Assembly (NCBI RefSeq): GCF_004126535.1
Contig: NZ_PPCV01000001.1
Coordinates: 186,001 to 250,000 of the forward strand
From: Propioniciclava flava
GTDB taxonomy: Bacteria > Actinomycetota > Actinomycetes > Propionibacteriales > Propionibacteriaceae
Direction of reading: 5' to 3'
Length of the DNA stretch: 64,000 nucleotides
Below, piece by piece: positions 261-13,539 of this stretch. The translations under genes were made by a program, and so were the position numbers. The notes beneath the pieces were generated by a model. That model made no database searches, had not been told where the DNA came from, and saw only the letters and a list, made by a program, of their open reading frames with translations. Positions within the stretch are counted from its first letter, which is position 1. Each line of letters opens with the position of its first letter.

Positions 261-281
261 ACAGTCAGCCAACCCCTTCTG

Positions 282-1817
282 CTAGCGCGCGCCCTGTCGG
301 GCAAACGTGAAGGTGATGAGGAAGGACGCCAGCAGCGTCAGACCCGTCAACACGAGGCAGTTGAGGTGGAGCGCCGAGAGGAAGGCATCGGAGGAGGCCA
401 TCCGCAGCGCCTGCGCGGCCGGTTCGGGCAGCCCCGCAGCTACTTGCTGAGCCGCCATGATCGACTCCCCGGCTTCCTGCCCATAGCTCGCCCCCGCGGG
501 GAGGGCTGCCCTCAGTTGTTCGCGGTACACATGGGTCAAGATGGAGCCAAGCACGGCGACACCGATCGTGCCGCCGACTTCCCGGATGGAGTCATTGACG
601 CCGGAGGCGACGCCGATCTCGTCGCTGGGGGAGGCCGACAAGATGATGTCGGTGGCGGGTCCCTGTGCCAGGGCCAACCCCATCGCCATGAAAATCATGG
701 CTGGCACCATGACGGCCCAATAGGGATTGGTGGCATCGGCGAAGGATACGATCAAGAACCCGATGCTCATCAACGCCATGCCCGCTGGGATGCAGCGGCC
801 GGGACCAATCTTGCGTGCCAGCACCGGGGCGAGGGGAGAGCAGGCGGCCATCACCACAGCGAAAGGCAAGATGGCCAGCCCTGCCTGGAGCGCGCTATAG
901 CCACGGACTGCCTGGAAGTAGATGGTGATGGCAAAGGTGAACCCGAACAGGGAAAAGAACGCCACACCGATAGCGGAACTGCACGCCGCGACACCTCGAG
1001 CCCGAAACAGGCTCAAGTCCAGTAGAGGGGAAGCTACTCGTCGTTCCCATGCGAGGAAGAGCGTTGCCAACGCGATGGAGGCGGCGAGGGCACCGAGGAT
1101 CGGCCAGGAGGTCCATCCCCATTGCGGGCCCTCGATAATCGCACCGACGAACAGGCCGAGGGCGGCGACCGCAAGGAACACCCCCCAGCCATCGAACTTT
1201 CCCCGGCGCTCCCCACGGGATTCGGGGACCAGCCAAGGAGTCACCGCAGCGACGGGCAGCACGATCGCGATGTTGATCGCGAACAGGGACGGCCAGGCAA
1301 AACTTTGGAGCAGCAAGCCTCCGAGAACCGGGCCCAGTGCGATCCCCAACCCGGCGGTCGCAGCCCAGAGGCCCACCGCGAGCGCATGATGCTTGGTGCC
1401 GTGGAAAATGGTCGAGATCAGCGACAGCGTCGCGGGGAAGACCAGCGCGGCACAGATCCCTAGGAGGGCGCGCAGAGCGATCAGCACCCCGAGGTGGGTG
1501 GTGAGAGCGGAGGCGAGCGAGACAGCGGCAAAGCCGAGGAGGCCGGCGATCAGCACGCGGCGTCTGCCCCAGCGATCGCCAAGGTAGCCCCCCGGCAGCA
1601 TCAAGACCGCAAACACGAGGGTGTAGGCGTCCACGATCCACTGCAACTGGGTGGTCGACGCGTCGAAGGCCCGACCCAGGGTAGGAATGCCGACGTTGAT
1701 GATCGTGTTGTCCATGACTCCGACCAACTCGGCCAAGCACAGGATCGCCAAAGCGACGAACGGGCGCTTGGCGGCGGGCCGCGCGGGGTGAGACCGGGGG
1801 GCATCGGTGGAGGTCAT
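282..1817 (-). CDS. DHA2-family MFS drug/metabolite exporter, 14 TM segments
   Basis: A 511-residue major facilitator protein of the EmrB/QacA (DHA2, proton-drug antiporter) type. It has an early membrane-embedded Asp in ELVGVMDNTIINVGIPTL, the antiporter motif GYLGDRWGRRR after TM2, and enough hydrophobic segments for 14 TM helices. I chose the ATG at 1817 because GAGGAAGG lies just upstream of it; an ATG 27 nt earlier would put this ribosome site inside the coding region. It is the last gene of the minus-strand operon, 41 bp after the KS-CLF stop. Position and family suggest export of, or self-protection from, the product made by the upstream PKS/AONS genes. The substrate is inferred from context only. 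Confidence 0.9.
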   Translation of the reverse strand: MTSTDAPRSHPARPAAKRPFVALAILCLAELVGVMDNTIINVGIPTLGRAFDASTTQLQWIVDAYTLVFAVLMLPGGYLGDRWGRRRVLIAGLLGFAAVSLASALTTHLGVLIALRALLGICAALVFPATLSLISTIFHGTKHHALAVGLWAATAGLGIALGPVLGGLLLQSFAWPSLFAINIAIVLPVAAVTPWLVPESRGERRGKFDGWGVFLAVAALGLFVGAIIEGPQWGWTSWPILGALAASIALATLFLAWERRVASPLLDLSLFRARGVAACSSAIGVAFFSLFGFTFAITIYFQAVRGYSALQAGLAILPFAVVMAACSPLAPVLARKIGPGRCIPAGMALMSIGFLIVSFADATNPYWAVMVPAMIFMAMGLALAQGPATDIILSASPSDEIGVASGVNDSIREVGGTIGVAVLGSILTHVYREQLRAALPAGASYGQEAGESIMAAQQVAAGLPEPAAQALRMASSDAFLSALHLNCLVLTGLTLLASFLITFTFARQGAR

Positions 1818-1858
1818 GATGATTCCTTCCTCGTGAGGGGACACAGGTGGGTGCTGGC

Positions 1859-4558
1859 CTACTGGGCGGATGGGGCCGACGCGACCACGAGAGCTGCAAT
1901 GACCTGCTGCAGGCGCGTCGTGGGATCGCCGTCAAGGTCGAAGACCAGCCGCAGGGCACCTTCGGAGGCCGAGGTGGTGGTCGTGGCAGGGGTAGCGGCG
2001 CGCAGGTGGGCCAGGAGATCGTTGAGATCCGCACCCTCGAGGGTCACGGGGTGACCCAGGTCTGGGGCCGCTACCTCAGGGGGGGCCGCGTTGGGGTGTC
2101 GTGCCACCGTGACGGTGTAGCCCGCGCCGTGGAACACCGAAGGCAGGGCGGCGGTGAGCTCTGTGGCTGCTGGATCGCTGGCCAGAGCCAGCAAGCGCGT
2201 CAGCGCCCAGAACGCGCCGTCTGCCCCCAGCGTGGTCACCTCACCGGCCGCAAGCCCCGTGCCTGTGCCCGTGGCATCAGGAGCAGCCCGAACATAGCCC
2301 AGCACGTGATCGTGCGGTGAGAGGTCTTCAGCACGGCGGACGACAAAGGACACCGAACCCTCCACCGGACGCAGCGGCGCGCCCACCTGCCTGGACCACA
2401 GGTCAGCCATCTCCGGGGCGACGAGTGCGTTCACGCCACCGATCACGACCGCATCCGCCTGCGCCTCGTCCAGGATCCCTGTCGCGGCCCAGACCGCAGC
2501 ACCCCAAGACGACAGGTCGGCATCCACGATGTAGTTGGTGCCGCGCAGGTCAAGGCTGTTCCCCACCCGTCCGGCGACAATGTTGTCCATATAGCCCGGC
2601 AACGCGGCCTCCGTCGTGGTGTCGGGGCCTACAGGGAAGGCGTCCTGGAGGCCCGCGCGCCACCCGGTGATGGCTTCGGTAGAAACGCTGCAGAGCCGGG
2701 CAGCAGACTCCAAGACGTCCACGAACTCGTCAGCGCGGATGCGTTCATTGCGATCGAGCGAGGCTTGCGAACCCGACGCCGTCGCTACCACTGTCGCGAC
2801 TCGTTCGGGGATGGACACGGTGCGACCCGTCAACAAGCCTGCGTGCTGCAGCGCATGCAGGCTCGTGCTGAGGAACAGTTGCTGGGCACGGTCGGTCTGT
2901 CGCAACGTGCTGGGCGGGATCTTGACCTCCCGAAACGGGAACCGGAAGTCGTCGGCGAGCCCGGTGGGGTGCGCGGCGAGGCCGTCCCAGGCCTGTTGGA
3001 AAGCGACCGCGTCGGGAAGCCCCGAGGCGGCGGGGAGGCCGGGCAGCAAGGCAGAGGCGCCCACGACAGCCAGCCACGAAGTGACCTGCTGGGTCTTCGG
3101 GGTGGCCGGGGCACTGCCGAGGAGCGCTCGATGATAGGCCGGGTCGAACTCCTCCACCAGAACCGAGGAGTCCACACCGCCAAAGCCGAAGGCGTTGGCA
3201 AGCGCCCGTCGCGGATGATCGGGGTGGCGGGGCCACGGGCCGCCCTCAGGCAGCAACCGCAGGCTCTCGGCGCGCTCGGCGAGGGCTGAGGTGGGCTGAT
3301 CGACCCCGAATGTGGGGAAGAACCGTTGCCCCTGGAAGCTCAACAAGACCTTGACCAAGTTCGCGATGCCAGCCGACGGGAAGCCGTGGCCCACCAGAGC
3401 CTTACCCGAACCGATGGTCACAGGATCGGTGCGGCGAGCGTGGGACACCAGGAGCGCCACGGATTCGAGTTCGGTGGTGTCGCCGGTGGGCGTCCCCGTG
3501 GCATGAACCTCCACGTAATCCAGATCGCGGGCGCTCAGCCCTGCCTGATCGAGCGCCGCCTGCATGGCCGCAACCTGTCCGCGCGAGGAGGGGGCATAGA
3601 TCGCCTTTCCGGCCCCATCCGAGCGCGTCGCAGCTCCGCGGATCACACCGATGATGGGGTCCCCTTCGGCAAGGGCCCGGTCCAACCGCTTCAACACGAC
3701 CGCACCGGAACCCTCCCCGGGGATGAGCCCGTTCGCCGAGGCCGAGAGGGGACGGCTTCCGTCGGGGGAGAGGCCGCCGATCTTGGCAAACGAGACGTTG
3801 CCGGCGACGCCCATGTTCGCCATGGTGCCGATGGCGACCACCAGGTCGCGATCGCCCCTCACCAGAGCGGCAATTGCCGCGTCCACCACAAGCAACCCCG
3901 AAGCGCAGGCACCGTCGACGAGGGTGGCTTCCCCCGACAATCCCAGTGCTGCGGCCACCACGGGAGCTAGTGCGCTGGCGAGCACGTGCTGCGGGGCGGG
4001 CTGGGATGAGCCGAACTGACGGTCAGACGCCTGAGCCCAGGCGTCTCGCCACGCAGCAGCGGTGGTGCCCTGGGGCGTGTCGAGGCATGCCGCGAGGCGT
4101 TCATGATGGTCCTCTGCGCGGCGCCGCATCGAATAGTTGGCCAGGGTCTCATCGCCCAGCATGTTGCCCAGATAGATCGCCCCGCGGATCGTGCTGCGCC
4201 GTGCCGTGTCGTACCCGGCGGCCTGGAGAGCTTGCAGGGCGGCGTCGATCGCGAACAGTTGCGTCCGGTTCGCCTCCGCAACAACGCGCGCCTGCGCGGC
4301 AGTCAAGCCGTAGGGGGTGAAGTCACCGTGATAGTCGTCGACGAACCCGCCCAGGGTGCAGTACGTGCGCTCGGGAGCGTGACGGTCCTTGCTGAAGTAG
4401 CGATCGCGATCCCACCGCTTCGCGGGGATCGGGGAGATGCCCGGCGTGCCCGCGAGCAAGTTGCGCCGATACTCCACCAGCGAGGTCGAGGTGGGAGGGA
4501 GGACGCACCCAGCACCGAGGATGGCGATGGGCGTCTCAGGAGCGGCAAGGGGGGACAT
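1859..4558 (-). CDS. Ketosynthase-chain length factor (KS-CLF) didomain protein of PUFA-synthase-like PKS
   Basis: An 899-residue protein with two thiolase-fold halves. The N-terminal KS (about 5-470) carries Cys218 in VDGACASGL, His352 in HATGTPTGD and His391 in KALVGHGF, so the Cys-His-His condensing site is intact. The C-terminal half (about 494-800) starts with the KS-like WLAVVGASALLPG but reads DADLSSWG where an active KS has DxACSS. The nucleophile Cys is thus Leu, as expected for a chain length factor. KS-CLF fusions of this size are known from PfaC-type secondary lipid (PUFA) synthases. The ATG at 4558 has GGAG upstream and overlaps the end of the PPTase gene by 23 bp, indicating translational coupling. 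It would condense malonyl units on the ACP of the upstream gene. Confidence is high for the fold and moderate for the PUFA-like classification. Confidence 0.88.
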   Translation of the reverse strand: MSPLAAPETPIAILGAGCVLPPTSTSLVEYRRNLLAGTPGISPIPAKRWDRDRYFSKDRHAPERTYCTLGGFVDDYHGDFTPYGLTAAQARVVAEANRTQLFAIDAALQALQAAGYDTARRSTIRGAIYLGNMLGDETLANYSMRRRAEDHHERLAACLDTPQGTTAAAWRDAWAQASDRQFGSSQPAPQHVLASALAPVVAAALGLSGEATLVDGACASGLLVVDAAIAALVRGDRDLVVAIGTMANMGVAGNVSFAKIGGLSPDGSRPLSASANGLIPGEGSGAVVLKRLDRALAEGDPIIGVIRGAATRSDGAGKAIYAPSSRGQVAAMQAALDQAGLSARDLDYVEVHATGTPTGDTTELESVALLVSHARRTDPVTIGSGKALVGHGFPSAGIANLVKVLLSFQGQRFFPTFGVDQPTSALAERAESLRLLPEGGPWPRHPDHPRRALANAFGFGGVDSSVLVEEFDPAYHRALLGSAPATPKTQQVTSWLAVVGASALLPGLPAASGLPDAVAFQQAWDGLAAHPTGLADDFRFPFREVKIPPSTLRQTDRAQQLFLSTSLHALQHAGLLTGRTVSIPERVATVVATASGSQASLDRNERIRADEFVDVLESAARLCSVSTEAITGWRAGLQDAFPVGPDTTTEAALPGYMDNIVAGRVGNSLDLRGTNYIVDADLSSWGAAVWAATGILDEAQADAVVIGGVNALVAPEMADLWSRQVGAPLRPVEGSVSFVVRRAEDLSPHDHVLGYVRAAPDATGTGTGLAAGEVTTLGADGAFWALTRLLALASDPAATELTAALPSVFHGAGYTVTVARHPNAAPPEVAAPDLGHPVTLEGADLNDLLAHLRAATPATTTTSASEGALRLVFDLDGDPTTRLQQVIAALVVASAPSAQ

Positions 4559-5384
4559 GAGGACTCCGTTCAGGTGTCTGGGGGGTGGGGGATGTCGCCC
4601 ACAAGTCCGGGTCGACGAGCGGGTCCGTTGTGGCAACGGACAAAATGTGATCGGGGAAGAGGGTGACGCTGATCCGTGCCTGCACGTGCGGGGATCCGGT
4701 CGCCTTCGCGGACGCGAACCGAACCGTGTCGGGCGGATCGCCTGGTGACCGGGGGAGAATCCGGAAGCGGCCGTACCCGAAGCTGGGCCGCCCGCAGAGT
4801 TTGGCGAGACACTCGATCACGGTCCAATAGACGCTGGCTTGGTCCTCGCTCGAGAGGGACGCGAACGTGTGAGCCGCGACACGGGCCTCCTCGTCGCTGA
4901 AGACCGAAGCGACGCTGTCTTGAGCCACGGCGTGGCGGGGCTCGAGGTCGACCGCACAGGGCGATCGCGACAACACGGCAACCGAACAGTCTGCGCAATG
5001 CGACACCGAGGCTTGCGCCACGGCGTCCCCGCGGTCGTTCACGATGAGGGGGCGGCCCTGTTCGTCGGGGTCTCCCGATTCCATCCGGGTCACCGTGGGG
5101 CGGATCGCAGCGAGATGGTCATCGGCGAGGACAAGGTCTTGGAGACACAGGCGCCCTGTTACCCATTGAGCTCGCCGGTGCGGGTGCCTCAGTCGGGTTA
5201 GACCGGCCGCGTCGCACGGTACGGGCCAGTCGTGGGTGGGGTCGGCGTCCACGTCCGTCAGGGCGCGTCCATGCCAGACGGGGCGAACCCGTCCTGCGAT
5301 ACCGACACCCACCTTGACGCCGGGCATCGTGGCGAGTCGGATCTCGCTACGCCGTAGCGTGAGCGAGGCGTGAACGTGCAGCAT
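4536..5384 (-). CDS. Sfp/AcpT-type 4'-phosphopantetheinyl transferase dedicated to the PKS
   Basis: A protein of up to 282 residues. VSHCADCSVAVLSRSPCAVDLE corresponds to the SHS...A...GIDIE region of Sfp-type transferases, with the Mg-binding Asp/Glu as VDLE. WTVIECLAKLCG corresponds to WxxKEAxxK; it keeps the Glu and the second Lys but replaces the first Lys by Ile. The enzyme would load phosphopantetheine onto the ACP serine of the PKS subunit encoded directly upstream. The start is uncertain: ATG 5384 has AGG 10 nt before it and overlaps the PKS gene, ATG 5420 is further upstream without a ribosome site, and ATG 5327 lies just after the PKS stop. It overlaps the KS-CLF gene downstream by 23 bp. 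Its placement after the DH domain mimics the C-terminal PPTase of enediyne PKSs. Confidence 0.85.
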   Translation of the reverse strand: MLHVHASLTLRRSEIRLATMPGVKVGVGIAGRVRPVWHGRALTDVDADPTHDWPVPCDAAGLTRLRHPHRRAQWVTGRLCLQDLVLADDHLAAIRPTVTRMESGDPDEQGRPLIVNDRGDAVAQASVSHCADCSVAVLSRSPCAVDLEPRHAVAQDSVASVFSDEEARVAAHTFASLSSEDQASVYWTVIECLAKLCGRPSFGYGRFRILPRSPGDPPDTVRFASAKATGSPHVQARISVTLFPDHILSVATTDPLVDPDLWATSPTPQTPERSPHVPPCRS

Positions 5385-8300
5385 CGTGGTTGAGCCTGTG
5401 CAGGAGGATCCGGTCAACATGGATCAGCGGTCGGCCGTGCAGGTCGGCGACATCAACCCGCATCGCGTACTGCCCGGTGCCGTCGGGGTGGACCTCCACG
5501 CATCCGAGGACGTCAGTGCCGTCGTCGGGAAGGTCATCGATCACCGCCTGGTGGACGCTCACCGGGACGATGTGATCACCGAACCGGTGGAAGACGTCGA
5601 TCAGTGCCAGGCGCCCCACGTTGTCCAGCAGCAACGGCGCCGTCACGAAACGCGCGTTCCCCTCGGGAACAAGCCCCCGCGTGTCAGGCGACGTGGAGAA
5701 GCGTCCCGCCAGCAGGCCCCGGCTGGTGCGCCAGGCGTCCTTCATGGTTCGGAAACTGGGGCCAAACGTGATGGTGGCACTGGCCGCGGCGTAATACTCC
5801 TCCAGATCGAAGGTGAGGGCACGATCGGCCAGCACCTCCTCCCAGTTCTCTGAGAAGGCGGGCATAGGGTGCCGCGGGACGAACACGGCGCGCGAGCGCT
5901 GGCGTCCCGGAACCAGGACCACGCCGCCAGGACTGACGACGTCCGCGGTGATGGCGGTTTCGATCCGATCCGACTGCTCTCCCGAGACGGTGATCGTGAG
6001 ATCGCTCACGCGCCCGCTGGGGCACTTCAAGAAGTTCTCGAACTGGGCGGAATCGATCATGAGATCGCGACCGTGAGCGGCCAGCGAAGCGGCCTCCGCC
6101 ATGGCCTCCAGATGGAAGACCCCCGGAAGGGTCGGTGCCCCCTGCACGAGGTGATCGACCAGCATGGTGTCGAGTCGGGGATCGAGCCGACGGCTGAATA
6201 CGGTGCTGCTGGCGTTGGCCGTTTCCACCAGGGGGAAGGTGCCCGGGTCGACGATGCTGCCATGGTCAATGGGGTGACTGATCGCCTCCCGGTCGGGGGT
6301 CAAACAGTCCAGTGCCGAACGTGGCTCATTGGTGCCCAGTGGGCCAAAGATCATGACTTGTGGGTCGTAGCCGCCCCCCGCTAACTCCGCGACGAAATGT
6401 CGGCACCCCTCGCTGGGGGAGAGATAGCGAAGGCCTCTTTGGTGTTCCTGCACCTCTTGGACGCTGTGATGGGTGGCCATGCCGACTTCCGCCCAGGCTG
6501 TCCAATCGAGGGCCACGATCTGGGTGGAGAGATGCCGTCGGCCGAGATCACTGCACAACGCCGACACGGCGGCCGCGCCTGCGGTGTACTCGGTCTGCCC
6601 GTCCATGCCGAAGCGCCCAGAAATGGAGGTGAACGCGACCAGGAAGTCCAGTTCGGCGGGATCAATCGTTCGCAGGAGGTTGTAGAACCCCCCGAGCTTG
6701 GTGTCGACCACCTGCTCGGCCAGGGCATAGTTCTTCTTCGGCAAGAGCCCCAAGGACTCCAACCCGGCGGCGTGAACCACTCCACGAATGCCGCCGTGAC
6801 GAGCGCGGATCCCCGCCATGACCCGCGCCACCTCTGCGGTATCGCTCACATCGCAGGTGACGTACTCCAGGGGGGCCGATTCCGCTGACAGGCGGGTGAG
6901 GGTTTGGTGCAGGTGGCGATTGTTCGCGATCCGGCGCAACCGCTGTTGGAGATCCATGGGGCGGCTCTCAGGGTGGTCACGGTGGAGGCTCGCCATGATC
7001 TCGGGTTGGGCGGCGGCGAACTCGTCGTCGTTGGCGTTGAGATACGGCTGCGACTCGGGATCGTCGAGGCGCGAGCGCCCCAAGATCACCACTGGGCTTC
7101 GACCGGATCGCGTGAGGTTGACCTCGCTGCTCGCGAGAGCGAGCGCACATTCCAACGCGATGCCGCGCGACCCGCCGGAGAACACGATCGCCCCGGACGT
7201 GGGTTCGCGGTCGGCCAAGGCTGCGGGAACAGCGACGGGGACGACCTTGATCACGTGGCGTTGATCGCCGAGGTAGCTGACCTCGTCATCGTGGGATCCA
7301 GCGGCGAGTTCCCTCACGAGGGCCTGGGCGGCCGCAGCCGCCTCATCGCCATCGACATCGACCAGGCACAGGTGCAACGCGGGGATCTCCTTGGCCACGC
7401 TCTTCACGAAGCCGACGCTGAGGCATCCCAGTGCGTCGCCGCCGCCGGTGGCCTTGAGTCCAAACGCACCGCCGCACCGGGTCAGTACGGCGAACACCGC
7501 CTGCGAACCCGCATCGCTGAGATCTGCGAAGTACTCCTGACTCACGGCGAACACGAGTGCGTAGTGGGCCCGCCAGGCCTGCGCAAAAGCGGCAGGCTCC
7601 AAGCCCAGCACGTCGCGGGCCGCACCGTAGCTGGCGAGGTAGATGATGCCGTCGCGTGGCCCGTGGTGGTGATGCTCGTCGGCGAGGCGCGCAGCGAGGC
7701 TGCCGTGATCGACCTCCCCGCTGGGGAGGGTAACCGTGCTGATGAGGACGTCGGCGCCCGCATTCTCCAACAGCGCTCGCGTCTGGTTGGTGAGGTCCTC
7801 GTCGTCTGCGGCAACGACGAGCAGACGGCGTCCTCGCAGGTCACGGGGGGTGCGCGGGGACTGCGCGAGATCGCGCACGAGAGCGCGCGGCACGTAGCGG
7901 TGCGCACTGTCCTTGACGCTCACCGTGTGCATCTCGCCGTCGTCGGGCACGGGCGCCTGAGGGGTCGCGGTGGTGGTGAGTTGGTGGGCGAGGTCGTTGA
8001 TGGTGGCGGCGCCGGTGAGGTCGAGGGTGTCTTCGGCGATGGTGTGGCGTGTGGCGATGGTGCCGATGACTTGGGCGCGTTTGACGGAGTCGACTCCGAG
8101 GTCGGCTTCGAGGTCGAGGTGGGGTTCGATGATGTCTGCGGGGTATCCGGTGGCGTGGGCGAACTCGGTGATGAACTCGGTGACCAGGTCGGTGGTGGTG
8201 AGTGTGGCTTCGTGTGGGGTGGCGTCGGTGGGCGTGCCTGGTTCGGTGGGCGCAACCGACCGGGCCACCGGCTCTGCGGGCCGCTGCGCGGTTCCTCCCC

Positions 8301-9678
8301 GAGGCACTTGGCCTCGGAGCCTGCGGGGCATCGCCTCCCCGCCGAGATCCGGGTCAGGCTGGCCAAAGCTGAGGCCCGAGGCGAGTTCCTCAATGCTGTG
8401 ACGAAGATCGCCATAACGAGGGCCAAAGGTCTCTTCCAGGCGGGTACTCACGTCGTGTCGCATGGTCGCGACCAATCCGATGCGCTCCAGCGGTGTGTCC
8501 TGCGGAACCGCGAACCTCGGATAAGCAGTCACGGCGCTCACCACGGCCGTGATGTCCGCCGCCGTGACCGGGGAGGCCGATTCCGAAGCGTCGGTGGGGA
8601 GAAGGGGAACGCCCACGCTGGTCAGGTAGAGCTCGACGCGGCGCCGATCCGCATCTGCGGGGCGTTGGCGTGAGTCGAGCGGGACGCAGGCCACCTCTCC
8701 GGCGTCGGACTCGATCAGCCCAGAGAGGATGCTGCTGGGGCCAGCCTCAACGAAGTCGCTGATCCCCGAAGCCGCTGCCTGAGCCAGGAGAGCGCCAAAA
8801 TCGAATGGTTGCACCAACTGTGCCGCCAGGAGGCCCGGCAGGTCACGAAGATCCGACTCCTCAAGGTAGGTGCCGGTGATGCTGGACAAGACGGCGCGCG
8901 TTGGCGGGCGGAACGTGAGTCGCTCCAAGCGAGTACGAAGCGGAGCGACGCACGAGCGCAGCACGGGCGAGTGGTAGGCGTGAGTCACACGGAGACGGGT
9001 CACGGGCAGGCGCGCGTCGGTCGCTGCCTGAAGGAAGGAGGCGATCGCTTCCTCCGAGCCCGAGACGACCCGCTGGCTGCTGGAGTTGGCGATGGCCTCA
9101 CACAGATCACCCGCGTTGGCGGCCAGGACGAGGAGCCGTTGATAGATATGCCGTTCTGCGTCACCGCGAAGGCGCACGGCGACCATGGTTCCCCGGGCTT
9201 GGATGGGTAGCTCTGACACGGTCTCTGCGCGGGCCAGCACCCCGTCGAGGGCATCGGGGAAGCTGAGGATCCCTCCGGCCACATAGGCGGCGTACTCCCC
9301 GAGGCTGTGCCCGATCAGGAGATCCGGCGGCGTGAAGAGGCTCGTCAAACGCCGATACTGGGCCAGACTCGCGGTGAAGATTGCGCCCTGCATCGCGGTG
9401 GGTTCGGCCAGCGTGGCGGGAGTCGCCCCGCGTTCGGTGTAGACGCAGGAGGACAACGAGTGGCCATAGCGGGACTCGAAGATGTCGTCGGCCTGGTCGA
9501 ATACGGACGCGACCAGGGGGTCGCTCCAGCGTAGGCCGGCAAGGAGGTCGAGGTACTGGCTGCCATGGCCGGGGAAGACGACGCCATAGGCGGGGGATGC
9601 CTGGACTGCGGAGAGGAAGACGCCCTCACGCCGCAGCATGCGGCGCGAGGCGGACAAGGCGGACAGGTCGGTGGTCAT
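5347..9678 (-). CDS. Iterative type I PKS subunit: AT - pseudo-ACP - ACP - KR - DH
   Basis: A 1443-residue multidomain synthase subunit. Domains in order: acyltransferase about 30-345 (Ser125 in GHSLGEYA, His236 in YHSP); an ACP-like stretch about 370-440 without a phosphopantetheine Ser; an ACP about 495-570 with Ser531 in DLGVDSVKRAQ, the D-S-I/V-K signature of PUFA and enediyne synthase ACPs; a split ketoreductase about 615-1115 (NADPH motif FSGGSRGIA, SxSGRFGMDGQTEY with Tyr1032); and a hot-dog dehydratase about 1160-1430 (His1177 in DHLVQGAPTLPGV, likely Asp1353 in LLLDNVGRL). There is no KS, ER or thioesterase; the KS is supplied by the KS-CLF gene. A reducing, unsaturated acyl chain on ACP is the expected intermediate. 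Start ATG 9678 follows the AONS stop by one base. Region 7965-8260, encoding the ACP, has unusual base composition. Confidence 0.92.
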   Translation of the reverse strand: MTTDLSALSASRRMLRREGVFLSAVQASPAYGVVFPGHGSQYLDLLAGLRWSDPLVASVFDQADDIFESRYGHSLSSCVYTERGATPATLAEPTAMQGAIFTASLAQYRRLTSLFTPPDLLIGHSLGEYAAYVAGGILSFPDALDGVLARAETVSELPIQARGTMVAVRLRGDAERHIYQRLLVLAANAGDLCEAIANSSSQRVVSGSEEAIASFLQAATDARLPVTRLRVTHAYHSPVLRSCVAPLRTRLERLTFRPPTRAVLSSITGTYLEESDLRDLPGLLAAQLVQPFDFGALLAQAAASGISDFVEAGPSSILSGLIESDAGEVACVPLDSRQRPADADRRRVELYLTSVGVPLLPTDASESASPVTAADITAVVSAVTAYPRFAVPQDTPLERIGLVATMRHDVSTRLEETFGPRYGDLRHSIEELASGLSFGQPDPDLGGEAMPRRLRGQVPRGGTAQRPAEPVARSVAPTEPGTPTDATPHEATLTTTDLVTEFITEFAHATGYPADIIEPHLDLEADLGVDSVKRAQVIGTIATRHTIAEDTLDLTGAATINDLAHQLTTTATPQAPVPDDGEMHTVSVKDSAHRYVPRALVRDLAQSPRTPRDLRGRRLLVVAADDEDLTNQTRALLENAGADVLISTVTLPSGEVDHGSLAARLADEHHHHGPRDGIIYLASYGAARDVLGLEPAAFAQAWRAHYALVFAVSQEYFADLSDAGSQAVFAVLTRCGGAFGLKATGGGDALGCLSVGFVKSVAKEIPALHLCLVDVDGDEAAAAAQALVRELAAGSHDDEVSYLGDQRHVIKVVPVAVPAALADREPTSGAIVFSGGSRGIALECALALASSEVNLTRSGRSPVVILGRSRLDDPESQPYLNANDDEFAAAQPEIMASLHRDHPESRPMDLQQRLRRIANNRHLHQTLTRLSAESAPLEYVTCDVSDTAEVARVMAGIRARHGGIRGVVHAAGLESLGLLPKKNYALAEQVVDTKLGGFYNLLRTIDPAELDFLVAFTSISGRFGMDGQTEYTAGAAAVSALCSDLGRRHLSTQIVALDWTAWAEVGMATHHSVQEVQEHQRGLRYLSPSEGCRHFVAELAGGGYDPQVMIFGPLGTNEPRSALDCLTPDREAISHPIDHGSIVDPGTFPLVETANASSTVFSRRLDPRLDTMLVDHLVQGAPTLPGVFHLEAMAEAASLAAHGRDLMIDSAQFENFLKCPSGRVSDLTITVSGEQSDRIETAITADVVSPGGVVLVPGRQRSRAVFVPRHPMPAFSENWEEVLADRALTFDLEEYYAAASATITFGPSFRTMKDAWRTSRGLLAGRFSTSPDTRGLVPEGNARFVTAPLLLDNVGRLALIDVFHRFGDHIVPVSVHQAVIDDLPDDGTDVLGCVEVHPDGTGQYAMRVDVADLHGRPLIHVDRILLHRLNHDAARSRLAHATA

Positions 9679-9679
9679 G

Positions 9680-10870
9680 TCAGAGGATCCCCTTCTCGCG
9701 GGCGGTGGCGCTGATGACGGTGATTGCACGTTCGATGTCGGACTCTTCGAGCAGTGCGGTCACGGTGGCGCGGAAGCGGCTGGCTCCCTGAGGAACGGCC
9801 GGGAAGGCGGCCACGGAGAGGAAGACGCCGCGGGCGCGTAGGTCGTGGGTCATCTGCATGGCCAGGGCGTCGTCGCCGACGGGGATCGGGACGATCGGGG
9901 AACTGCCCGATTCGATAGCAAATCTCTCATCCAGCAGTCCCTGGCGGAAGGCGATCGTGTTGGCCCACAGACGCCGGCGCAACTCTGGCCGTGTACGGAT
10001 AGCGTCGAGCGCGGCGAGCGCGCCCCCGATGAGCACGGGAGGTGGGCTGGCGTTGAAGATGTAGCCGTGGGCCGCATGGCGGATGTAGTCGCAGACCTCT
10101 TGGCTGGCGGTGATGAACCCCCCGGAGGACCCGAAGGACTTACTGAGTGTGCCCATGAGAATGTCGGGCTGAATGCCGAAGTGCTCGCAACTGCCGCGCC
10201 CGGTGTCGCCGAAGACGCCGATGCCGTGCGCGTCGTCGACCATGAGGAGGGCGTCGTAGCGTCGGCACAGTTCGTCGATCTCATGGAGCGGGGCGAGGTC
10301 GCCATCCATGGAGTAGACCCCGTCGACGACGATCAGTCGGCAGGCGTGATCTTGGGTACGGCGAAGGATGTACTCAAGCTTCAACATGTCGTTGTGGGGG
10401 AAGATCCTCAGATCGGCCCCCGACTGCTGACAGCCATCGGTGATGCTTTGGTGATCGAGTTGGTCGGTGATGAAGACGACGCCGGGACCGCCGAGCGCCG
10501 ACAGCGGGGCAACATTGGCCAGGAATCCGGAACTGAACAAGACGCAATCTTCAAAGCCAAGCCACTGTGCCAGTTGCTGCTCGAACTCGCGATGGAGGAC
10601 GGTCGTGCCGTTGTGCAGGCGGGCTCCGCAGGTGGACAAGCCGTAATCCTGCACCGTGCGTTGTGCCGCAGCCACGACGTCCGCGTCAACGCTGAGCCCC
10701 AGGTAGTTGTTGGAGGTGAGCATGATGACGGGTTCTCCGCCAGGGAGCAGCGCCGTGTTGCGTTGTGCGCTGGCAAGCGGTTGGCCGTAGGGGTACTCGC
10801 CGTTGCTCATGCCGGTGCGGACGGCATGGGAGACGTCACGGAATCGAGTTGCGTAGCTGGCGTTTATCAC
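9680..10870 (-). CDS. Alpha-oxoamine synthase (BioF/KBL/SPT family), PLP-dependent
   Basis: A 396-residue fold-type I PLP enzyme of the family that condenses an acyl thioester with an amino acid and releases CO2 (8-amino-7-oxononanoate synthase, serine palmitoyltransferase, KBL). Visible family marks are SNNYLGL near residue 53, His140 stacking over PLP, VDDAHGIG (Asp212, His215) and the Schiff-base Lys244 in GTLSKSFGSSGG. Length is normal for a stand-alone enzyme without a fused ACP. It is the first gene of the PKS operon, one base from the AT-ACP-KR-DH gene. No biotin genes (bioA, bioB, bioD) are nearby, so a role in biotin synthesis is unlikely. The inferred role is chain release: acyl-ACP plus an amino acid gives an alpha-aminoketone. 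The amino acid cannot be read from the sequence. Confidence 0.9.
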   Translation of the reverse strand: MINASYATRFRDVSHAVRTGMSNGEYPYGQPLASAQRNTALLPGGEPVIMLTSNNYLGLSVDADVVAAAQRTVQDYGLSTCGARLHNGTTVLHREFEQQLAQWLGFEDCVLFSSGFLANVAPLSALGGPGVVFITDQLDHQSITDGCQQSGADLRIFPHNDMLKLEYILRRTQDHACRLIVVDGVYSMDGDLAPLHEIDELCRRYDALLMVDDAHGIGVFGDTGRGSCEHFGIQPDILMGTLSKSFGSSGGFITASQEVCDYIRHAAHGYIFNASPPPVLIGGALAALDAIRTRPELRRRLWANTIAFRQGLLDERFAIESGSSPIVPIPVGDDALAMQMTHDLRARGVFLSVAAFPAVPQGASRFRATVTALLEESDIERAITVISATAREKGIL

Positions 10871-10908
10871 GGGGGGCTCCAGACAGGTGCGGACGATGAA
10901 TCCTCGGC

Positions 10909-10923
10909 GATAGTAGCACTATC
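10909..10923. promoter_or_regulatory. Dyad operator 1 overlapping the predicted -10 of the AONS-PKS operon
   Basis: GATAGTAGCACTATC is a perfect inverted repeat (GATAGT/ACTATC, 3-nt centre). On the minus strand it contains TACTAT, a plausible -10 hexamer, about 40 nt before the AONS start. Occupancy would block that promoter. The likely ligand is the divergent MerR-type regulator, because the same dyad recurs at its own promoter. Confidence 0.7.
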
Positions 10924-10964
10924 CGTCGGGTCGGATTTCCTCGAATGTGGCCTGCGGGATTGTG

Positions 10965-10979
10965 GAGAGTGCTACTATC
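10965..10979. promoter_or_regulatory. Dyad operator 2 overlapping the predicted -10 of the MerR-type gene
   Basis: GAGAGTGCTACTATC matches the reverse complement of operator 1 at 14 of 15 positions. Its TACTAT (10973-10978) sits 6 nt before the ATG at 10985, so the regulator mRNA is probably leaderless and autoregulated. The two dyads face opposite ways, 56 bp centre to centre. Confidence 0.7.
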
Positions 10980-10984
10980 CGCTT

Positions 10985-11641
10985 ATGTCAGTGAAGGTGA
11001 CGCAAGGCCCAGAGGCTGTACCCATTTCGGTGCTCTCCCAACGATCTGGCGTCTCGATTGCGACGATCAAGTACTACATCCGCGAGGGTCTCATTCGTTC
11101 CAATCAAGACCCCCGAGCCGACGACGCGGAAACCGTCGAACAACTGCGCTTGATCCGGGGGCTCGTCCACGTCGTCGGCCTGTCGATCCTCCAAGTGCGC
11201 CAGATTCTCGCGCTCGTGCAGGATCCCGCTGCCAACCCCGCAACTTCGATGACCGATGTCACCGTTGTGCTGCCGTTGGCGGGGGCGCGCCCGACGGAGC
11301 GCTCGGCCAAGGACGCCGATCTCGCCTCAGCGCGCGCCGCCCTCGCATCGGCGGGTTTCGACGACCTGCCGGATGTCCCTTACGTGACGCAACTGCTCGC
11401 CGCCATCTCCCTTGCAGAGGATTGCGGAGTGGGGATGGACGCCGACCACCTCGCGACCTACGCCGCGGCAGCGCGAGCATGCGCCGCGGCCGACTTCGAC
11501 AACCTGCCGCTGGACTCCCCGGGCAAGGCTGCTCAGGCAGCCGTCCTCGGCACGGCGATTTACGACCCCATCTTGGTGGGATTGCGGCGCTTGGCACACC
11601 GGGAGCGAGCGGCGCATCTCTCTTCCACTCAACCCCAGTGA
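10985..11641 (+). CDS. MerR-family transcriptional regulator
   Basis: A 218-residue protein with an N-terminal winged helix of MerR type (about 12-80: PISVLSQRSGVSIATIKYYI, then a REGLI wing and a predicted dimerisation helix). The C-terminal half is Ala-rich and alpha-helical and has no recognisable effector motif, such as metal-binding cysteines. The reading frame stays open far upstream, but the ATG at 10985 starts the HTH domain and lies 6 nt after a TACTAT -10 box, so a leaderless start is favoured. It is divergent from the AONS-PKS operon with shared dyad operators and is the probable cluster regulator. The MDR reductase begins 16 bp downstream and is likely co-transcribed. Confidence 0.88.
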   Translation: MSVKVTQGPEAVPISVLSQRSGVSIATIKYYIREGLIRSNQDPRADDAETVEQLRLIRGLVHVVGLSILQVRQILALVQDPAANPATSMTDVTVVLPLAGARPTERSAKDADLASARAALASAGFDDLPDVPYVTQLLAAISLAEDCGVGMDADHLATYAAAARACAAADFDNLPLDSPGKAAQAAVLGTAIYDPILVGLRRLAHRERAAHLSSTQPQ

Positions 11642-11657
11642 CAAGGACGAATCGGTC

Positions 11658-12626
11658 ATGCAGGAGCCATCGCGCCGTCGTGAAGAGGTCCCTACGGTGG
11701 AGTACCAGGCCTTCGGCCCTCCGGCAGTGCTGCAGGTCATCCCCGTTGCGGTCCCGACGCCGGGACCGCACGACGTGGTCGTGACGGTGGCTGCTTGCAG
11801 CGTCAATCGCCTCGACACCGCCGCGCGGGCCGGGCGTCAGAAGTTCCTCACCGGACGCCGCATGCCGCAGCGCACAGGTCTGGATTTCAGCGGAACCATC
11901 GTTGAGGTGGGCTCACACGTGGAGGGCCTTCGCGAAGGCCAGCGCGTCTGGGGATTCCTCGGAACGCAGCATCTCGGCGCTCATGGTGCCGCCGCCGTGC
12001 AAATCACGGTCGATGCAGGGCTGGTGGCGCCCGCCCCCTCGGGAAACCTGACGGACTTGGCCGCCCTTCCGCTGGCAGGCCTCACGGCAGGCCAGGCGTT
12101 CGACCGCCTCGGCGTCGGGTCGGGCTCTCGCATTCTGATCACCGGCGCCGCCGGCGGGGTGGGTAGCGTCGCGGTCCAGATGGCGAGGGCTCGTGGGGCG
12201 GTCGTCGACACGATCGCCGCCCCCCGCTATGCCGATCTCCTGCAGCGTCAGGGGGTGGCATCGCGTTGTGACCCGCACGCGATTCCGTGGACGCGGATGA
12301 CCGGGCAGTACCAGGCCGTCTTGGACACGACGGGAGCCCACCTGTGGAAGTTGCGCCGCTGCGTCGCCCGCACGGGTGCGATGGTGACGATCTCTCCTGC
12401 CGGATTGCCGATGAGCTTCCTCAGCAGCATCATGCCTGGTCCGAGCGTGTCCTTCGTCTCCGTCAGGCCTAGCCGCGACGGCCTGTCGGCCCTCGCCGAC
12501 CTGGTCGAGACCGGCCGCCTCACCCCGATCATTCGCGCCAGGTTCCCTTTGGCGGACATCGCCTCGGCTCACGCCATGGTGGAGGGCGGGCATGGCGAAG
12601 GGAAGGTCATCGTCGACGTCAGCTGA
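11658..12626 (+). CDS. Zinc-independent MDR-family NADPH:quinone reductase-like oxidoreductase
   Basis: A 322-residue medium-chain dehydrogenase/reductase. The GroES-like N-terminal part (CSVNRLDTAARAG, RTGLDFSGTI) is followed by a Rossmann domain with the nucleotide motif GAAGGVGSVAVQMA. Catalytic and structural zinc cysteines are absent, which places it with the quinone oxidoreductase/zeta-crystallin branch rather than alcohol dehydrogenases. AAGGA precedes the ATG at 11658. It follows the MerR-type gene by 16 bp. A tailoring reductase for the PKS product is possible, but an unrelated redox role fits the sequence equally well. Confidence 0.85.
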   Translation: MQEPSRRREEVPTVEYQAFGPPAVLQVIPVAVPTPGPHDVVVTVAACSVNRLDTAARAGRQKFLTGRRMPQRTGLDFSGTIVEVGSHVEGLREGQRVWGFLGTQHLGAHGAAAVQITVDAGLVAPAPSGNLTDLAALPLAGLTAGQAFDRLGVGSGSRILITGAAGGVGSVAVQMARARGAVVDTIAAPRYADLLQRQGVASRCDPHAIPWTRMTGQYQAVLDTTGAHLWKLRRCVARTGAMVTISPAGLPMSFLSSIMPGPSVSFVSVRPSRDGLSALADLVETGRLTPIIRARFPLADIASAHAMVEGGHGEGKVIVDVS

Positions 12627-12639
12627 TTAGGCTGGGGGT

Positions 12640-13539
12640 ATGACCGTGCTACCGCAGCGCAGAATCGGACGTTTTTCCGTCTCCTCCATCGGATTGGGTG
12701 CGATGCCCTTCTCGATGGGTGGCAACGTCAAACCCAGTCGGGATCAGGCGATCGCGACCGTCCATGCGGCCCTCGATGCGGGTGTCACGCTGGTGGATAC
12801 CGCTGACATCTATGCGCCCCGTTGGGATGAGATGGGTCACAACGAGCGCATCGTTGCCGAAGCCCTCTCCACATGGGAGGGGGATCGATCCTCTGTCGTC
12901 GTGGCGACCAAGGGCGGCATCACGCGTCGCTCCGCCGAGGCCGACTTTGGCCGTGACGGTTCGCTTTCCTACCTGCGGGAGGCCGCCCTGGCGTCGCGGG
13001 AACGCCTCGGAGTGGACGCCATCGACCTGTACTACTGGCATCGTCCCGATCGACATCGCCTCTACGCCGAATCGATCGAAGCCCTGGCGCAATTGCAGCG
13101 CGAGGGCATCATCGTGGAGATCGGGATATCCAACGCCAATGTCGAGGAACTGGAGGTGGCGCTGGAGGTTGTGGGAGCTGGCGGCCTAGCCGCCGTCCAA
13201 AACGAGTTCTCGCCGCGCTTCAATCACACGTCCTATGCGGAATTGCAGTGGTGCACAGACCACGATGTGGCGTTCCTTCCCTGGTCTCCTTTGGGTGGCA
13301 CGGGCGGCGGCGCCGTCGCGGTGGGGGAGCGATTCCCGGTGATCGCTGAGGTGGCCGAAGCCCACGGGGTCTCCCCGCAGCGCGTCACGCTGGCCTGGGA
13401 GTTGGGGCTGAGTGAGAGTGTGATCCCCATTCCGGGCGCGTCCCGTCCTGCCTCGATCCGAGATTCGGCGGCCGCGTCTAGCCTGACGCTGCTCGACGCG
13501 GAACGCGAGCGCATCAGCGCTGCTGTCCTGAGTCGCTGA
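12640..13539 (+). CDS. Aldo/keto reductase
   Basis: A 299-residue TIM-barrel NADPH-dependent aldo-keto reductase. The catalytic tetrad can be traced as Asp in DTADIY, the Tyr of the same motif, Lys in VATKGG and His in YYWHRPDRH. The C-terminal IPIPGASRPASI motif binds the cofactor phosphate. It starts 13 bp after the MDR gene, yet TAGGCT (12628-12633) lies 6 nt before its ATG. A separate leaderless promoter is therefore plausible in addition to read-through. Reduction of a keto group on the product is conceivable; the substrate is unknown. Confidence 0.88.
   Translation: MTVLPQRRIGRFSVSSIGLGAMPFSMGGNVKPSRDQAIATVHAALDAGVTLVDTADIYAPRWDEMGHNERIVAEALSTWEGDRSSVVVATKGGITRRSAEADFGRDGSLSYLREAALASRERLGVDAIDLYYWHRPDRHRLYAESIEALAQLQREGIIVEIGISNANVEELEVALEVVGAGGLAAVQNEFSPRFNHTSYAELQWCTDHDVAFLPWSPLGGTGGGAVAVGERFPVIAEVAEAHGVSPQRVTLAWELGLSESVIPIPGASRPASIRDSAAASSLTLLDAERERISAAVLSR

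Follow-up and report, generated by a model that had tools for sequence, protein, structure and literature searches.

Pairing of a polyketide synthase (PKS) with an alpha-oxoamine synthase (AONS) is known from PfSgaAB of Pseudomonas fluorescens MYb115, where an iterative type I PKS and an AONS with serine palmitoyltransferase (SPT) activity give rise to sphingolipids, and 6,101 homologous clusters, dominantly from Burkholderia, have been reported (PMC12134224). Here we analyze a seven-gene cluster in a 64,000-nucleotide stretch of the 3.0 Mb genome of Propioniciclava flava (G000; positions 186001-250000 of contig 11), referred to below as the window. It encodes a ketosynthase-chain length factor didomain (KS-CLF), a PKS with acyltransferase (AT), acyl carrier protein (ACP), ketoreductase (KR) and dehydratase (DH) domains, a probable phosphopantetheinyl transferase (PPTase), an AONS, a major facilitator superfamily (MFS) exporter, a MerR-family regulator and a quinone/enone-type oxidoreductase (QOR) (Table 1). 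The reading that we consider probable is that of a horizontally acquired specialised-lipid cluster, resembling polyunsaturated fatty acid (PUFA) synthases, whose AONS frees the finished chain as an alpha-aminoketone.

As far as PfSgaAB is described in that report, the likeness lies in a PKS adjoining an AONS, with iteration presumed for the window as well; PfSgaAB joins its chain to serine in a decarboxylative condensation. PfSgaAB has one monomodular PKS and a short-chain dehydrogenase/reductase (SDR) acting as ketosphinganine reductase, whereas the window has a two-protein synthase and no SDR in the cluster, and adds PPTase, MerR, QOR and MFS (PMC12134224). Pfa and secondary lipid synthases have been divided into 20 types (A-T), with no AONS in the types described (PMC3098273). 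The window shares with these KS-CLF, AT, a PUFA-like ACP, KR, DH and PPTase, and differs in having one KS, no PfaD, DH behind KR, one active ACP rather than a tandem, and an added AONS (PMC3098273). PUFA-synthase-like enzymes have likewise been recruited for secreted, nitrogen-bearing specialised lipids in the zeamine/fabclavine and chitinimine hybrids surveyed in PMC13291983. In that survey the nitrogen of these hybrids comes from aminotransferase domains and nonribosomal peptide synthetase modules, and release is by a thioester reductase domain for zeamine and by KS transfer plus a thioesterase for chitinimine; the terms 'oxononanoate', 'actinom' and 'propioni' are absent from its main text. 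Clusters of the hglE-KS kind are reported in Bifidobacterium longum, with no AONS in what that report describes (PMC11218132), and are possibly, matched by description only, the AONS-free sister synthases discussed below.

AONS genes also sit in prodiginine-like clusters (L132 and L135, the latter with genes named PigD and RedY). The PigH/RedN-type AONS joins an amino acid by condensation to a chain carried on an ACP; it falls on another branch of our AONS tree and works among dissociated enzymes with their own ACP genes. The enediyne synthase PKSE is a single KS-AT-ACP-KR-DH-PPTase protein, whereas KS-CLF and AT-ACP-KR-DH are two proteins in the window. No paper describing an AONS with a KS-CLF PUFA-like gene set was found among those listed in searches of the open-access PMC literature. 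The first-pass annotation, made from the sequence of the window, had proposed a candidate new system. The set does recur and is undescribed in the literature searched, but the label is too strong because a PKS with an AONS has been described experimentally in PfSgaAB (PMC12134224), and the combination is also known from prodiginine-like clusters. What looks new is the AONS beside a KS-CLF PUFA-like core, the principle of PKS plus AONS being already known.

The seven genes form a discrete insert between two backbone genes. In the window an SDR gene ends at 260 and an aldo-keto reductase (AKR) gene starts at 12640, with 12.4 kb between them. The same-genus genome G518 has FtsK-SDR-AKR-ABM-RimO-pgsA in order with an SDR-AKR gap of ~120 bp, and G524 has FtsK-SDR-AKR-RimO with a gap of ~400 bp; because SDR and AKR nearly adjoin in G518, the seven genes are delimited as a 12.4-kb insert. 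In G523 the gap holds ~3.5 kb of other sequence with zero matches to cluster genes. AKR (12640-13539) was rejected as a part of the cluster, as it lies between SDR and RimO in G518, G524 and G523 without the cluster, and ABM was rejected because it stands beside RimO in cluster-free G518. The ends of the insert (201-330 and 12581-12720) have no 8-12-base word in common, direct or inverted. The surroundings of the related loci L027 and G418, judged by eye from open reading frames (ORFs), differ from those of the window, which is consistent with horizontal transfer, and the cluster was apparently acquired in this way. Within the insert, AONS is the first gene of the minus-strand set and its stop is one base from the PKS start, the KS-CLF start falls within the PPTase gene, and QOR begins 16 bp downstream of MerR. 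Neither ORFs nor Pfam revealed a thioesterase or other off-loader inside the insert.

All ORFs reported in the first-pass annotation, five on the minus strand plus the divergent MerR gene, are present, as are motifs for the catalytic residues that it listed in KS, AT, ACP, KR, DH and AONS. It had closed the unit at 282..11641, and the insert set runs on to 12626; its statement that there is no reductase needs qualifying because QOR, which it overlooked, lies inside the insert and directly follows MerR in three of three loci with AONS. The observation is thereby confirmed at a slightly larger size than stated, and the interpretation is partly supported.

Table 1. Features of the cluster and of its two closest counterparts (coordinates of the first ten rows refer to the window)
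Feature	Position	Strand	Remarks
Whole insert: MFS, KS-CLF, PPTase, PKS, AONS facing MerR, QOR	261..12639		Delimited by comparison with G518
DHA2-type MFS exporter	282..1817	-	ORF open to 1844; likely start 1817
KS-CLF didomain	1859..4558	-	Likely start 4558
Probable Sfp-type PPTase	4536..5384	-	Start 5384 or 5327
PKS: AT, degenerate ACP-like stretch, ACP, KR, DH	5347..9678	-	Likely start 9678
AONS, pyridoxal phosphate-dependent, proposed off-loader	9680..10870	-	Likely start 10870 (GTG)
Dyad 1, GATAGT-N3-ACTATC	10909..10923		Holds TACTAT (-10-like) toward AONS; likely MerR operator
Dyad 2, GAGAGT-N3-ACTATC, less perfect	10965..10979		TACTAT toward MerR; 5 bp before MerR ATG
MerR-family regulator	10985..11641	+	Likely start 10985
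QOR, MDR-family quinone/enone-type oxidoreductase, 322 aa	11658..12626	+	Start set from same-genus comparison
L027, Propionibacteriaceae MAG (metagenome-assembled genome; G435)			Contig of 61,324 bases, JAUNKK010000009.1
L037, degenerate locus of G418	8428-13418		MFS, MerR, QOR open; AONS, PKS, KS-CLF in pieces

The intact set recurs once, in L027 (L008, L027, G435 and G593 being the same contig or genome and counted once), as QOR, MerR, AONS, PKS with two active ACPs, KS-CLF and MFS in conserved gene order and without the PPTase. Amino acid identities to the window are 77% for AONS, 74% for MFS, 65% for MerR, 63% for KS-CLF, 60% for QOR and 57% for PKS. The pN/pS ratios between the two loci, for which synonymous sites are largely saturated, range from 0.20 to 0.42 across six genes (AONS 0.20, KS-CLF 0.34, PKS 0.39), and AONS is the most conserved cluster protein on both counts. 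Chance neighbours are ruled out by the recurrence of the set together with its discrete insertion. We refer to loci with AONS as type A (window and L027 intact, remnants in G418) and to L029-L031, L078 and L079, which carry PKS and KS-CLF but lack an AONS match at the locus, as type B.

Close relatives of the KS-CLF are rare. Within the family, a search at 1e-40 gave matches in 23 of 198 genomes. Identity was 50% or higher in three of these, namely the window genome, G435 (63%) and, as a fragment, G418 (51%); in the other 20 the matches listed reach 29-38%. Among 396 genomes sampled evenly across the phylum (1e-60) there were three matches, the window genome itself and two at 31% and 36%. A scan of contigs gave eight loci: L027 (61%), L028 from a Bifidobacteriaceae MAG (50%), L029 from Actinomyces massiliensis, L030 from A. 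oris and L031 from Bifidobacterium moukalabense (40%), and L032-L034, which were left out as 27-34% matches over parts of KS only. With a profile of six sequences (1e-120), two of 213 genomes in the A. oris family were matched, both already known, and three of 189 in the B. moukalabense family, of which two were new (L078 and L079, from G904 and G905). Genera g264 and g265 of the window's family (L010-L020, L026) include at least 14 genomes with large PKS ORFs whose KS has ~30% identity to that of the window, and in several of them a single contig has two such ORFs. This PKS differs from that of the window and is more common in the family.

A PUFA-synthase-like identity of the core is supported by domains, motifs and phylogeny. 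Pfam finds the N and C ketoacyl-synt domains in KS-CLF, residues 57-711 of which match PDB 6riw (chain named 'ORF10'), which we take to be the PfaC KS-CLF structure. Cys218 of the KS and the HATGT and GHGFP motifs are invariant in all six aligned sequences, and no Cys stands at the position matching Cys218 in the CLF half (alignment by eye). The PKS has Acyl_transf_1, PP-binding, KR and PKS dehydratase domains in Pfam, with GHSLG in AT, a single LGVDSVKR in ACP, SGRFG and YTAG in KR, and HxxxGxxxxP and LLDNVGR in DH. Active ACP motifs number one in the window, two in L027, three in A. oris L030 and two in B. moukalabense L031, the contig of L028 being cut. The first ACP in L030 and in L031 has as its counterpart residues ~385-450 of the window PKS, where the DS motif is absent from both the window and L027; judged by this alignment, the stretch is a degenerate ACP. 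The insert holds only one KS and lacks a separate PfaA with its own KS-AT; TIGR02813, a PfaA-level model, scores 214.7 and 227.2 bits against a cut-off of 1010.1. Pfam finds no PfaD enoylreductase in the insert, QOR being an MDR protein.

In a KS tree built from 18 domains (21 sources), L027 is the partner of the window (100/99), and L028 is next to join (94/90). Their sister group consists of the five type-B rows (100/99), all eight stand together (100/99), and the nearest rows outside are two other KS-CLF proteins (96/93 and 87/86). The KS of L029 and L030 are nearly the same (end branches 0.0024 and 0.033), with the cluster in only two of 213 genomes of their family, and this likeness may reflect recent transfer.

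The AONS matches Pfam Aminotran_1_2 (1.5e-51), and SPT and Kbl chains align with it at the catalytic lysine and at the catalytic His/Asp/His/Arg positions. NCBIfam scores are 361 bits for BioF (TIGR00858; cut-off 426.45), 341 for Kbl (cut-off 460) and 336.7, 321.3 and 258 for SPT models (cut-offs 640, 500 and 670). In a tree of 29 rows covering Kbl, BioF, SPT-like, PigH-like and PKS-linked AONS proteins, window and L027 form their own branch on a long stem, separate from the Kbl, BioF, SPT-like and PigH-like proteins. The best-scoring NCBIfam model is that of BioF, and on this ground the AONS might be a housekeeping enzyme of biotin or threonine metabolism, BioF or Kbl, that stands beside the PKS by accident. 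We find this scarcely credible, since a separate Kbl is encoded elsewhere in the window genome and groups with an annotated Kbl beside tdh, BioA exceeds its cut-off in none of the three type-A genomes (six of 14 controls; weaker aminotransferase matches in all three), and AONS has its own tree branch and travels with the cluster. By these comparisons the AONS is neither BioF nor Kbl, which speaks against the biotin role that the first-pass annotation had raised.

The best PDB matches of the AONS are SPTs, and it carries R-x-x-N-G-T and DGCQQ stretches resembling those of SPT chains. NGT occurs in 12 of 29 rows (window, L027, an SPT-like Parabacteroides row and nine actinobacterial rows); at the same position Kbl rows have CGT, two BioF rows TGN and TGT, and three rows no match. 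The likeness is a weak pointer to serine as co-substrate. Given that a PKS with an SPT-active AONS is described (PMC12134224), the AONS could be SPT-like and the cluster an actinobacterial version of PfSgaAB that makes sphingolipid-like membrane or signalling lipids. This seems to us quite unlikely: the window AONS lies outside the SPT-like rows (PfSgaB itself is absent from the tree), KS-CLF and AT-ACP-KR-DH take the place of a single monomodular PKS, and the insert has no 3-ketosphinganine reductase, the neighbouring SDR being a backbone gene present likewise in G518 and G524. The drug-type exporter, moreover, suggests secretion.

At 1e-72 the AONS matches 64 of 392 genomes of the phylum, with identity of at most 47% among the matches listed outside the window genome. 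KS or PKS genes accompany none of the nearest other AONS genes (0 of 29 loci, flanks of up to 1.5 kb, some ending at contig ends). Two PKS-linked cases were seen elsewhere. On Planktothrix agardhii plasmid p3 (L130, 563-8161) an AONS domain forms the end of a type I PKS of ~2530 aa; this fused PKS-AONS has glycosyltransferase genes as neighbours and possibly serves a glycosylated sphingoid-like lipid. On a plasmid of Streptomyces sp. NBC_00158 (L129, 4136-8173), one protein bears the annotation SDR plus PLP-dependent aminotransferase family (AONS-like) and clusters with ketosynthase, thioesterase-domain and MFS genes.

Searched with the AONS at 1e-20, the whole genomes of L028-L031 gave no match (0 of 4), and the type-A genomes gave three of three; L078 and L079 were searched at the locus only. 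An MFS gene adjoins the PKS in L029-L031, and TetR-like ORFs were noted beside these loci by eye; L078 has no MFS match, and L079 has a weak one (26%, 3.8e-10) beyond its PPTase. Because type-B relatives have the core and no AONS in the genome, the AONS looks recruited, and the simplest reading of the trees and searches would be that it joined a pre-existing KS-CLF/AT-ACP-KR-DH system.

Those relatives also bear on how the chain leaves the synthase. Two Actinomyces and one Bifidobacterium share the core with no AONS match in the genome, and no other off-loader was noticed beside their synthases (ORFs by eye, mostly not scanned). Since the synthases of L029-L031 lack an AONS match in the genome, another release route is implied for the core. 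The AONS of the window might accordingly act early or sideways, making an aminoketone from an ordinary acyl-CoA or acyl-ACP that primes or decorates the chain, while the chain itself leaves by hydrolysis, lactonisation or a host enzyme. We judge this fairly unlikely, as the AONS gene leads the set, with a single base separating it from the PKS, and its protein is the most conserved; moreover, the C-C bond made by PfSgaB is at the acyl chain's carboxyl end (PMC12134224).

Release by the AONS itself is still the reading that we prefer, and several points weigh against it. Besides the AONS-free genomes, the single further intact example (L027) lacks the PPTase, and the contig of L028 ends inside the PKS, before AT, short of the place where an AONS would lie. 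The two nearest KS-CLF rows sit on long, unsure branches, and the 29-row tree does not settle where the AONS stem of window and L027 branches off. NCBIfam leaves the AONS unassigned, all scores falling below the cut-offs and SPT not being singled out, and QOR is retained in G418 beside remnants of AONS and PKS. Gene content, motifs, co-inheritance, insertion and operator-like repeats were read from the sequence; from these we infer AONS release, its substrate, unsaturation, the role of QOR, regulation and export.

On this preferred reading, KS-CLF would condense and AT-ACP-KR-DH would load the extender, ketoreduce and dehydrate, working iteratively on an ACP armed by the PPTase. Because there is no enoylreductase domain, double bonds or hydroxyls should be left in the chain, which would be rich in them. 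The AONS would take the finished acyl-ACP and join it to an amino acid, most likely serine or alanine, in a condensation that loses CO2 and frees an alpha-aminoketone. If the last unit kept its double bond, an amino enone would result, and MDR enzymes of the QOR or enone-reductase type are expected to act on such compounds. QOR (Pfam ADH_N and ADH_zinc_N_2) has as its nearest PDB chains quinone oxidoreductases, a 2-haloacrylate reductase and 4ida, presumably a plant enone reductase, and these relatives make reduction of an activated double bond the natural guess; QOR might finish the product or shield the producer. The MFS pump would export the product, and MerR would control both divergent transcripts through two GATAGT-N3-ACTATC-like dyads.

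The remnant locus of G418 offers a view of the cluster after loss of synthesis. MFS (78% identity to the window), MerR (71%) and QOR (63%) are open, the AONS is truncated beyond residue 194, and what comes after it is no more than fragments of the DH and CLF regions. Retention of these three genes is as expected of an export and protection module, and the pattern fits self-protection outlasting synthesis; it may also be simply a recent deletion. QOR may be unrelated to the chemistry, because it is kept where AONS and PKS are remnants. Since the window PKS itself has one degenerate and one active ACP, the G418 pattern could further be taken to mean that the cluster is decaying and silent and that only MerR, QOR and MFS matter, as a stress or efflux switch. 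That seems very improbable to us, given that every ORF of the cluster is open in the window and retains its motifs, and that pN/pS against L027 is 0.20 for AONS, 0.39 for PKS and 0.34 for KS-CLF. A wider proposal, to which we give slightly less than even odds, is that a stand-alone KS-CLF PUFA-type synthase captured an AONS as its dedicated off-loader and that the secreted products, unsaturated alpha-aminoketone lipids, are a new class; the pump, regulator and enone reductase kept in G418 after loss of synthesis would then confer immunity to the product.

If AONS release is true, carbon-carbon release to an amino acid, giving an aminoketone, would be added to the chemistry of PUFA-synthase-like machines. 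The small seven-gene unit could be moved to a laboratory host, the AONS-free relatives provide a natural before-and-after comparison for recruitment of an off-loader, and G418, with pump, regulator and reductase only, makes self-protection testable.

The product of 4536-5384 is a probable Sfp-type PPTase. It has no Pfam match (E up to 1) and no NCBIfam match, a PDB search gave a single irrelevant match (E 0.77), and its AF2 model is poor (pLDDT 39.8). A homologue in L028 (36% identity) matches ACPS at 3.4e-4, below the Pfam cut-off. Sfp-type PPTases lie beside L078 and L079, and hhalign aligns the window protein with them at 93% (3.2e-7, 87 columns). The third motif reads WTVIE, at a place where K is usual. 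Its QGRP and SVSH stretches agree with the x(G/D)xP and hShxH motifs listed in PMC3098273. The cluster's 'own PPTase', noted in the first-pass annotation, is supported for the window by the L028 homologue and the hhalign result; it is not a constant feature, because L027 has between PKS and KS-CLF a short ORF without family match and no PPTase.

MerR matches Pfam MerR_1 (4.2e-9). The AONS-MerR gap is 114 bp, and both dyads, spotted by eye, are recognisable in three of three aligned intergenic regions: dyad 1 has one base changed in L027, dyad 2 has small changes among loci, and the sequence between them varies in length and letters. Dyad 1 is a likely MerR operator. A survey of 25 MerR neighbourhoods, from 30 matches in 28 of 197 genomes, rejected MerR-QOR as a common pair, QOR lying beside MerR only in the three type-A loci and within ~1.5 kb in none of the 22 others. 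The region of a MerR relative in G530 held nothing attributable to the cluster (ORFs by eye), and an MFS match (31%) was found beside MerR in two of the 22. The MFS protein matches Pfam MFS_1 (5.5e-54) and scores 228.3 bits with NCBIfam efflux_EmrB, just under the cut-off of 230.2, and its ORF is open in both L027 and G418.

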